Positions 9,566 through 11,279 of a stretch of 39,888 nt of DNA are shown here, piece after piece. The stretch lies in the IMG/VR virus record IMGVR_UViG_3300028666_000063, positions 1 to 39,888 of that record. One strand, written 5' to 3'. How positions within the stretch are numbered: the first letter of the stretch is position 1; each line of letters begins with the position of its first letter. The DNA is from a virus. Made by a program: the position numbers and the translations under genes. The notes beneath the pieces are model-generated. The model saw only the letters and a list, made by a program, of their open reading frames with translations, searched no databases and was not told the origin of the DNA.

Positions 9566-10180
9566 ACGAGTAGAGGGAAAAAGATTGCTCTGCTAATCAT
9601 AGTTCTAGCAATACTACTGATTGCAAGCAAAGTATTCGCTAAACAAGTAACTAACCAAACAAAAACAGACCCAACACAAATACAAAAAATAGTAGAACCT
9701 TACCAAAACAAACCCGTAGGGGAAATGCCACAAGGAAACAAACTACCACAGTTTGTATCTATTCCCGAAAAGATGTATACAAACTATACAGTTCCTCAGA
9801 TAACTGTACAAAATCAGCCCGAATCTATACAGTCCGACAACGAAAACGCAGTATGGAACTACCTAATACAGAGATTCACAAGAAACCAGACCGCAGGGAT
9901 TATGGGAAATCTCCAACAAGAACATGGCTTCCAAACCTCTGGAGATGGTTTAGCACAGTGGACAGGCGGAAGAAAATCACGCTTACTAGGAATGGATAAT
10001 CCGTATAGCCTAGAAACACAGTTGAACTTCTTGATAGTTGAGCTCAACGAAAGTGGTCTAGTCTTACCAGATGACCTAGTGGGAGCTACAAGAACCTTTC
10101 AAAATCAATTCGAGAGATGCGGACAATGTAACGAAGTAGGCCGTATAAACTACGCCTACGAAATACTGGCAAGGCATTAA
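9566..10180 (+). CDS. Exported lysozyme (phage tail lysozyme-like), probable ACG start
   Basis: From the only nearby ATG (9725) the protein lacks a signal peptide, yet the in-frame upstream sequence encodes a textbook one: SRGKKIALLIIVLAILLIA then SKVFA-KQ. The frame closes at TAA 9560-9562, and AAGGAAGG at 9552-9559 sits 6 nt before ACG at 9566, which occupies the start position. From there the protein is 204 residues. The catalytic domain (about residues 90-204) shows WNYLIQRFTRNQTAGIMGNLQQEHGF and GDGLAQWTGGRKSRLL, typical of tail-lysozyme muramidases, with the likely catalytic Glu in QQEHGF. It would degrade peptidoglycan from outside the membrane. Confidence 0.75.
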   Translation, partial: TSRGKKIALLIIVLAILLIASKVFAKQVTNQTKTDPTQIQKIVEPYQNKPVGEMPQGNKLPQFVSIPEKMYTNYTVPQITVQNQPESIQSDNENAVWNYLIQRFTRNQTAGIMGNLQQEHGFQTSGDGLAQWTGGRKSRLLGMDNPYSLETQLNFLIVELNESGLVLPDDLVGATRTFQNQFERCGQCNEVGRINYAYEILARH

Positions 10181-10294
10181 ATGGTAGGAGTAGCAGCTTA
10201 CATAATAGGATTCGCAATAGTATGGGTAACGATAGGAGGAGAACATGGCCTGGGCACATCCAGAGATAATAGGACAAATGCCACACGAAAGTAA
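10181..10294 (+). CDS. 37-residue membrane peptide, holin-like
   Basis: ATG directly after the lysozyme TAA. One hydrophobic segment (VGVAAYIIGFAIVWVTI) then a short polar tail. Size and position after a lysozyme fit a pinholin or lysis regulator. It overlaps the next gene by 50 nt in another frame, so its reality is uncertain. Confidence 0.45.
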   Translation: MVGVAAYIIGFAIVWVTIGGEHGLGTSRDNRTNATRK

Positions 10295-10427
10295 CAAAGA
10301 CTACTGGGAACGGTGGAGAGCGAACGAAAACAGGTTCTCTGAAGAGTTTAATAAAAGTTGGTTAAACCGCTTAGCAGGTAACCAGATACCAACTGTTCCT
10401 AGTTACGACGATCTAATAGCACATTAA
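10245..10427 (+). CDS. Unknown 60-residue protein
   Basis: Strong ribosome site AGGAGGAGAAC-ATG. Sequence rich in Trp, Glu and Asn (NKDYWERWRANENRFSEEFNKSW). Soluble and helical. No family recognised. Confidence 0.6.
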   Translation: MAWAHPEIIGQMPHESNKDYWERWRANENRFSEEFNKSWLNRLAGNQIPTVPSYDDLIAH

Positions 10428-10442
10428 CATAAGTATTGGTAT

Positions 10443-10517
10443 AGCGTAGTAGCTCAGTCATAATTAGAGCGTAGCAGGAAACTGCCTAGGTCGTTGGTGT
10501 GAGACCAACCTACTTTC
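10443..10517 (+). ncRNA. Degenerate tRNA-like RNA 1
   Basis: Order resembles a tRNA. 5' acceptor AGCGTAG, linker TA, D-stem GCTC/GAGC, then GCAG-GAAA-CTGC in place of an anticodon arm, variable GGTC, T-stem GTTGG/CCAAC with a 7-nt loop, and 3' acceptor CTACTTT (one mismatch). The D-loop lacks GG, the T-loop lacks TTC, and the GAAA tetraloop offers no anticodon. It cannot decode; either a decayed tRNA or an RNA keeping only the shape. Confidence 0.5.
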
Positions 10518-10526
10518 TACTAAGTA

Positions 10527-10563
10527 GCACTATAACTTTAATCCGTTATAGGTAAGTCTGTGC
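10527..10563 (+). ncRNA. Two-tier hairpin in the non-coding cluster
   Basis: GCAC (10527-10530) pairs with GTGC (10560-10563). Inside, CTATAAC (10530-10536) pairs with GTTATAG (10545-10551) around an 8-nt loop. It resembles an isolated anticodon-type arm but has no D or T arms. Confidence 0.45.
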
Positions 10564-10641
10564 CAATACTAAGTATAAGTTATGTCTCGATTATATGCCC
10601 CGTGGGTAGTGACGGCTCTCTGCCCCCAATACTAAGTATAA
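10563..10641 (+). repeat. Direct repeats CCAATACTAAGTATAA with inverted copy upstream
   Basis: Exact 16-bp copies at 10563-10578 and 10626-10641. An inverted partial copy, AGTATTGG, lies at 10432-10439. The inverted copy can pair with either direct copy, enclosing tRNA-like RNA 1 in a long stem. The repeats delimit a short GC-rich segment (10597-10625). Confidence 0.85.
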
Positions 10642-10658
10642 AGATATATCTAGGTACG

Positions 10659-10713
10659 AGTGGTGTCGTATAACGGTAGTACAAAGGTGTGGGTTCGAGT
10701 CCCACCACCGCTC
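10659..10713 (+). ncRNA. Anticodon-arm-less tRNA(Gly)-like RNA
   Basis: A 55-nt element with a perfect 7-bp acceptor (AGTGGTG/CACCGCT, one G-U), linker TC, a D-arm GTATAACGGTAGTAC with the conserved GG, and a fully canonical T-arm GTGGG-TTCGAGT-CCCAC. Between D and T arms there are only 6 nt (AAAGGT, 10683-10688), where a tRNA has a 17-nt anticodon arm plus variable loop. The arms match bacterial tRNA-Gly closely. No encoded CCA; flanks GATATA (10643-10648) and TATATC (10723-10728) can extend the stem. Confidence 0.75.
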
Positions 10714-10748
10714 TTATCTGGGTATATCTAAATATCGTATCTTGCGTC

Positions 10749-10812
10749 CCTCAGTAAACATGAAATATAGGCTGCCTGCAGCGAGTCTGGGCCACAGAGC
10801 CTTTTACTGAGG
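10749..10812 (+). ncRNA. Long structured hairpin before the HNH gene
   Basis: CCTCAGTAAA (10749-10758) pairs perfectly with TTTACTGAGG (10803-10812). An inner GGCT/AGCC stem (10770-10773 with 10798-10801) encloses a further short GCC/GGC stem. No T-run follows, so it is not an ordinary terminator. It ends 19 nt before the AAGGAGGG site of the HNH gene. Confidence 0.6.
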
Positions 10813-10841
10813 AGCATAGAATATGAACTAAAGGAGGGATA

Positions 10842-11237
10842 GTGGCAAAGAAGAAGACTGATAAGGGCAAGGCCGTGGACGAAGCAAAACTAATTGCTAA
10901 GTTGAGGGCTGGGTACAAGTGCGAGAAGTGTCCTAAGACCAAAGAAGACGGATGGCAGATGCACGGAGCACACATCATACCAGTAGGATATAACGGTACT
11001 GCTGCCGACCCCGATAATATCTTATGCTTATGTGCTACTTGTCACTCTATGGGTAAAGACTCTTCACATCAGAACCCTATCCCATTCTCGAACTGGTTTA
11101 ATGAGAAGTTCCCTGGTAGATACGATGAACTATGGCAGATAGCTTGGGGGTACACCCAAAACCCTAGACCCAAGAAGGATTGGATACAGATAAGAAAAGA
11201 CCTAAAAGAACTCACAAAACTGTTGACACAAGGGTAG
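10842..11237 (+). CDS. HNH endonuclease-like protein
   Basis: 131 residues, GTG start after AAGGAGGGATA. Two zinc knuckles (CEKCPKT and CLCATCHS) flank GAHIIPVGYNGTAADPDNILCLCATCH, the H-N-H arrangement of phage HNH proteins and NinG-like factors. The basic N terminus (MAKKKTDKGK) suits DNA binding. It may nick DNA for packaging or recombination. No intron is visible nearby. Confidence 0.75.
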   Translation: MAKKKTDKGKAVDEAKLIAKLRAGYKCEKCPKTKEDGWQMHGAHIIPVGYNGTAADPDNILCLCATCHSMGKDSSHQNPIPFSNWFNEKFPGRYDELWQIAWGYTQNPRPKKDWIQIRKDLKELTKLLTQG

Positions 11238-11279
11238 AATAAGCCTATACTAAGGATAAATTAAGTTATTGGAGGGGCA

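Follow-up and report, generated by a model that had tools for sequence, protein, structure and literature searches.

The window, which is the whole stretch of DNA analyzed here and a 39.9-kb phage contig of IMG/VR with terminase, portal, DnaB-like helicase and lysozyme-like genes, encodes a tRNA-like RNA without an anticodon arm at 10658..10713 on the plus strand, as identified by direct reading, by folding and by a match to a covariance model. Similar RNAs occur in many unrelated phages; therefore, the window RNA is probably a non-decoding mimic and not a dead tRNA. In our estimate there is about an even chance that the locus is a gene for such a mimic, consisting of an acceptor and a D/T elbow without the anticodon arm, and that it belongs to a recurrent class of unrelated phages. 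The evidence consists of the anatomy of the RNA, the recurrence of its design, its conservation as an island and some compensated stem changes in the copies of other phages.

The acceptor stem is formed by the 5’ half GAGTGGTG (10658-10665) and the 3’ half CACCGCTC (10706-10713). Two bases, TC, separate the 5’ half from the D-arm, in which GTAT (10668-10671) and GTAC (10679-10682) enclose the loop AACGGTA, and the T-arm consists of GTGGG (10689-10693), the loop TTCGAGT and CCCAC (10701-10705). All of these elements lie on the plus strand. The 8-bp acceptor (including G-1:C73), the 4-bp D-arm and the 5-bp T-arm form 17 of 17 pairs, the D-loop contains GG and the T-loop has the canonical form. 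Only 6 nt, AAAGGT (10683..10688, plus strand), connect the D-arm to the T-arm, compared with 23 nt in a normal tRNA. This linker corresponds to position 26 and a 5-nt variable loop, and the anticodon arm (positions 27-43) is cleanly absent. The RNA thus has the features by which the class is defined: an acceptor of at least 7 bp, a D-arm with GG, a T-arm with TTCRANT and a linker of about 6-11 nt. CCA is not encoded in the window copy. The first-pass annotation had described the same armless anatomy, with the anticodon arm and variable loop replaced by 6 nt and with stems that decay would be expected to have hit, and all of this agrees with the direct reading. Its position of 10659-10713 identified the right site with a wrong start, which is 10658, or 10642-10729 if the extended stem described below, absent from that description, is included.

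The training set of covariance model R1 comprised 62 armless RNAs, taken from other phages and from bacterial contigs, and the window was left out. It matched 10659-10712 with 38.4 bits (E 2.9e-12), and because the model did not include the window copy, chance is excluded; a chance fold is also ruled out by this match together with the z-scores of shuffled sequences. ARAGORN reported no tRNA in the window, and an Rfam search over the whole window gave nothing at the site at E<=1. In a local Rfam search the best match of the RNA was mascRNA-menRNA (RF01684; MALAT1, MEN beta), whose members have a similar size of about 54-60 nt, an acceptor, a D-region and a T-arm, and a reduced or absent anticodon arm. 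These are, however, vertebrate nuclear transcripts and not phage genes, and the score of 19.6 bits is far below the cut-off of 42.5. Several other identities were rejected. A tmRNA fragment (RF00023) would account for the T-arm only (10.2 vs 47 bits), and a functional decoding tRNA is contradicted by the absent anticodon stem and loop and by the ARAGORN result. The label tRNA-Gly, given in the first-pass annotation, has to be dropped: there is no anticodon, and the acceptor (A1-U72, G2-C71, U3-G70, G-1:C73) is not of the glycine type according to the established identity elements. The D-arm resembles those of Gly and Gln tRNAs.

The RNA is located between a lysozyme-like ORF (9725-10180) with a following small ORF (10245-10427) on the left and an HNH-nuclease ORF (10842-11237) on the right. 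The roughly 400 bases between the small ORF and the HNH ORF contain no plus-strand ORF of 50 aa or more; a minus-strand ORF of 75 aa (10751-10978) overlaps the right part of this gap. No close homologues of the locus were found in the collections searched, either by DNA or by three proteins of the window, where the only sizeable relative is the record L002. The sequence CCAATACTAAGTATAA is found three times, at 10563-10578, 10626-10641 and 11244-11259; two copies are exact and one has two mismatches. The third copy overlaps the -10 element of a good sigma-70-like promoter (TTGACA-17-TATACT).

Folding of the core RNA was better than in 196 of 200 shuffles (z -2.2). With its flanks (10636-10736) the z-score reached -5.8 and none of 200 shuffles was as stable, because pairing does not stop at the acceptor: past a single unpaired base on either side, 15 more pairs form between AGATATATCTAGGTA (10642..10656) and TATCTGGGTATATCT (10715..10729), two plus-strand arms detected by folding and as an inverted repeat. 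The inverted repeat 10637-10665/10706-10734 covers both acceptor and extension. The window copy is a structurally unusual member of the class, and its extended stem argues against simple release by RNase P. A 15-bp extension of this kind would be expected to hinder standard cleavage by RNase P and RNase Z, so that a free CCA-tailed RNA of 55-58 nt would be less readily set free from this copy. The same stem suggests that the RNA may be a cis structural element, a long elbow-capped hairpin that protects or separates transcripts and is never released as a small RNA. The continuity of the 15-bp extension with the acceptor, the repeats of CCAATACTAAGTATAA around the RNA and its intergenic position between the lysozyme-like and HNH genes are consistent with this explanation. 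However, most other class members do not have a long extension stem, and the class would be left unexplained; moreover, a simple hairpin would not need a canonical T-loop or the GG of the D-loop. We regard a purely structural role in cis as rather unlikely.

Other phage RNAs of the same design were first obtained by a loose scan, from the GGTAG of the D-loop to the T-loop with a short gap. A tighter pattern scan found at least 119 viral stretches; applied to about 85,000 genomes of bacteria and archaea, it gave only 71 matches, 16 of them strict and without N. Independent RNAs of the window design were thereby found in dozens of unrelated phages. Among the matches listed, 58 of 95 distinct viral matches with complete flanks have an acceptor with 7/7 pairs, whereas shuffling of the acceptor halves among the same 95 gave a mean of 1.1 and a maximum of 6 with 7/7 pairs. 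The 64 strict viral members among the matches listed contain 59 different acceptor 5’ halves, and their linkers peak at 8 nt (31 members) and 9 nt (19 members). Because the search pattern demands an intact D-arm and T-loop, intact acceptors prove descent from tRNA and not selection after the loss of the arm; by themselves they are compatible with a recent loss. In most class loci ARAGORN reported no other tRNA nearby. No recurrent neighbor gene was found, and only two protein groups are common to three loci each. One fixed gene position for the class was likewise rejected, since several members occupy the border of the late activator and terminase genes, some lie inside the head genes and others follow the lysin.

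When the linker was left free up to 21 nt, many tRNA-like genes with unusual anticodon arms were also recovered, such as arms with loops of 3-6 nt or a UUCG loop. The viral loci L326, L333, L356, L398 and others have intact acceptor, D- and T-arms with short, small-loop anticodon arms, including UUCG tetraloops. Complete armlessness is thus one end of a range of aberrant anticodon arms. A scan with the D-arm type of the window returned mostly ordinary tRNAs; by eye, L413 and less surely L437 are of the same type. A separate design was observed in Bacteroidota (Spirosoma, Larkinella, Cytophagales and Chitinophagaceae), in which a hairpin, a D-arm-like element, a 10-11-nt linker, a T-arm-like element and a second hairpin follow one another and the acceptor is unpaired (loci L236, L241, L243, L248-L251, L253, L254, L256, L258, L261, L264, L265, L281, L291 and others). 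The phage contigs L004, L016, L140, L164 and L168 look similar to this unpaired design.

The range of anticodon arms bears on the explanation that the window RNA is the non-functional relic of a former tRNA, hit by a one-off deletion with decay yet to come. The precise loss of a hairpin can result from replication slippage, the neighboring second tRNA-like sequence is clearly degenerate, and the window copy has no relatives in the collections searched that would prove its conservation. All of these points are compatible with a relic, as is the continuum of aberrant arms among viral tRNA-like genes. Against it stand the 17 intact pairs, the intact T-loop and the 15-bp extension, the fact that unrelated phages share the design, with linkers that peak at 8-9 nt among the matches listed, and the island conservation in Lactococcus phages described below. 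In L002, the nearest relative, ARAGORN found no tRNA in the 20.8-kb part scanned, and R1 has no match across the whole record. The search with an armless covariance model that the first-pass annotation had proposed recovers the window copy and gives no match in L002. Taken together, a dead remnant seems improbable for the window copy.

Conservation in related phages was seen for the Lactococcus and L. brevis copies of the class. When the core was used as a query, 40 phage records were seen to contain the element, namely 28 of Lactococcus, six of Polaribacter phage Danklef and six named ‘Bacteriophage sp.’; the 28 Lactococcus records include GenBank/RefSeq duplicates and represent about 25 distinct phages, among them P335, ul36 and its derivatives, bIL286, bIL309, TP712, 63301, the D-series and others. 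In the Lactococcus records the matching bases carry no tRNA annotation. Across eight Lactococcus phages, identity averages 97.6% over the 60-nt element, compared with 56% upstream and 46% downstream, and in pairs of phages with unrelated flanks on both sides the element is still 97-100% identical. It is located 3’ of the lysin wherever the stretch examined includes the lysin, and no integrase is annotated in the neighboring stretch of P335, 63301 and D2544, which keep the element. In the L. brevis phages LBR48, Lb and 3-SAC12 and in two IMG/VR records, a 57-nt RNA is about 95% identical and the flanks differ. Phage 3-SAC12 carries two paralogues with paired C-G/U-A exchanges in the acceptor and T-stem, and pair 1:72 is swapped between C1-G72 and G1-C72 when loci L020/L199 and L198 are compared; the covariation in the L. 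brevis set (six sequences) was no higher than in shuffles. The copies in Danklef scored 72 bits and are annotated as tRNA-OTHER, Undet.

Such conserved islands are strong but not final evidence of selection, because a recombination hot spot or a recently spread cassette could give the same pattern. Decay is an unlikely explanation of the class. The earlier proposal of a mimic kept by selection is supported for the class, by recurrence, by the Lactococcus island and by a few compensated pairs, and stays a presumption for the window copy, which has no close relative in the collections searched.

In several loci the armless RNA directly follows another structured RNA. In L170, which is the same locus as L456, an Rfam scan placed the end of GOLLD 3 nt before the armless RNA on the same strand. 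In L182 (7298-8001) a tRNA-Gln, a ROOL RNA and the armless RNA are arranged end to end on one strand, and ROOL runs into the armless RNA. In L161 an abiF RNA (1866-1903; 39.9 bits, cut-off 37) ends 4 nt before the armless RNA on the same strand, between the genes for head assembly and for the major head protein of the phage contig, and in L154 GOLLD and a full tRNA are found shortly upstream. The abiF RNA family takes its name from an abortive-infection gene. GOLLD (RF02032) and ROOL (RF03087) are themselves different and much larger phage RNAs. At 29% of loci, significant structure (p<=0.05) was detected in the 50 nt immediately 5’ of the armless RNA, compared with 11-15% in control stretches. 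Five other ROOL copies (Lactobacillales) have no tRNA-like RNA within 1.5 kb; thus, ROOL processing does not generally depend on an armless RNA, and the idea that ROOL always needs one is contradicted. GOLLD and ROOL are often located near tRNA islands in phages and prophages (PMC12286853). The adjacency of GOLLD, ROOL and abiF RNA leans towards a role in processing; all of the roles offered in the first-pass annotation, a substrate for RNase P or the CCA enzyme, a nuclease decoy or a processing signal, stay candidates.

A comparable arrangement may be seen in the release of mascRNA from a long RNA. In vertebrates, RNase P and RNase Z separate mascRNA from the 3’ end of the long non-coding RNA MALAT1. 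For recognition, these two nucleases and the CCA-adding enzyme rely on the acceptor and elbow, and the anticodon arm is dispensable to them. The parts kept in the armless RNAs are the parts read by tRNA-processing enzymes, which favors a processing module and/or a decoy. The likeliest role would be that of a non-decoding acceptor/elbow mimic, either as a module for RNase P/RNase Z processing or as a decoy for tRNA-targeting enzymes. The armless RNA would be part of a longer non-coding transcript, in which RNase P, RNase Z and the CCA-adding enzyme would recognize its acceptor and elbow. Cleavage at the armless RNA would set the ends of the neighboring structured RNA and/or leave a stable mimic of 55-60 nt that competes with tRNAs. 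The window copy, because its acceptor is prolonged by 15 pairs, would probably act as an elbow-capped hairpin, or a double-strand nuclease would open the extended stem first. We offer tentatively, and with a little less confidence than the reading of the window RNA itself, the wider proposal that many phage lineages encode an undescribed class of armless mimics, serving as a portable RNase P-type module and/or an immunity decoy and often joined to GOLLD, ROOL or abiF.

A decoy acting in trans would be a processed armless RNA that binds host enzymes attacking the acceptor tail and elbow of tRNAs, sparing the functional tRNAs; tail-cutting Cas12a3 and toxins that modify 3’ ends may serve as examples of its targets. 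It is exactly the acceptor and elbow that are kept, an abiF RNA is 4 nt away from one copy, and the Lactococcus copies are placed where accessory genes are typically found, between the lysin and the integrase/repressor region. Acceptor-directed immunity exists, since Cas12a3 cuts tRNA tails; it engages the tail, acceptor and T-arm and tolerates the loss of tRNA loops (PMC12851939). Phage tRNAs are also known to counter tRNA-targeting defenses (PMC10264068, PMC11555353). However, CCA is encoded neither in the window copy nor in most of the class (3 of 60 members, compared with 11 of 24 for the full tRNAs of these loci; Fisher p 3e-5), a search for a link to a particular defense gave none, and the extended stem of the window copy would need to be removed first. 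A decoy in trans is therefore doubtful, if still plausible.

Like tRNA (RF00005), the class has an acceptor, a D-arm and a T-arm; unlike tRNA, it has no anticodon arm and hence no decoding. The defense-evading phage tRNAs are also phage-borne and altered in the anticodon region, but they keep the decoding arm that the armless class has lost (PMC10264068, PMC11555353). The terms ‘truncated’, ‘pseudo’, ‘missing’ and ‘anticodon stem’ are absent from the text of PMC10264068, and a literature search limited to open-licence papers found no description of armless RNAs as a class. Many class members exceed the Rfam tRNA cut-off (about 38-56 bits), and GenBank entries for a few of them read ‘tRNA-OTHER’ or Undet; thus, annotation pipelines do see class members. 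Phage tRNA genes are usually judged by codon use, and a recurrent non-decoding class would imply that some phage ‘tRNAs’ have another job. The class is present and unannotated in model lactococcal phages, which makes it testable in laboratory phages, and it offers a handle on GOLLD and ROOL.

Two further structures were observed near the window RNA. A second and more degenerate tRNA-like sequence at 10443..10516 on the plus strand is the next-best R1 site in the window after the armless RNA, with a weak score (12.2 bits, E 0.034). Its D-stem is GCTC/GAGC without GG, a GAAA-capped hairpin stands where an anticodon arm would be, and its T-stem has a non-canonical loop. A long stem with a multibranch fold is predicted to enclose it (10431..10571, plus strand; z-scores modest), and as a weak observation the sequence looks like a possible degenerate tRNA within its own long stem. 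A stable hairpin at 10748-10815 (CCTCAGTAAA...TTTACTGAGG; z -2.4 for 10738-10825) is located just 5’ of the HNH gene, and by eye a long-stem region of L002 (8960-9180) is comparable to it.
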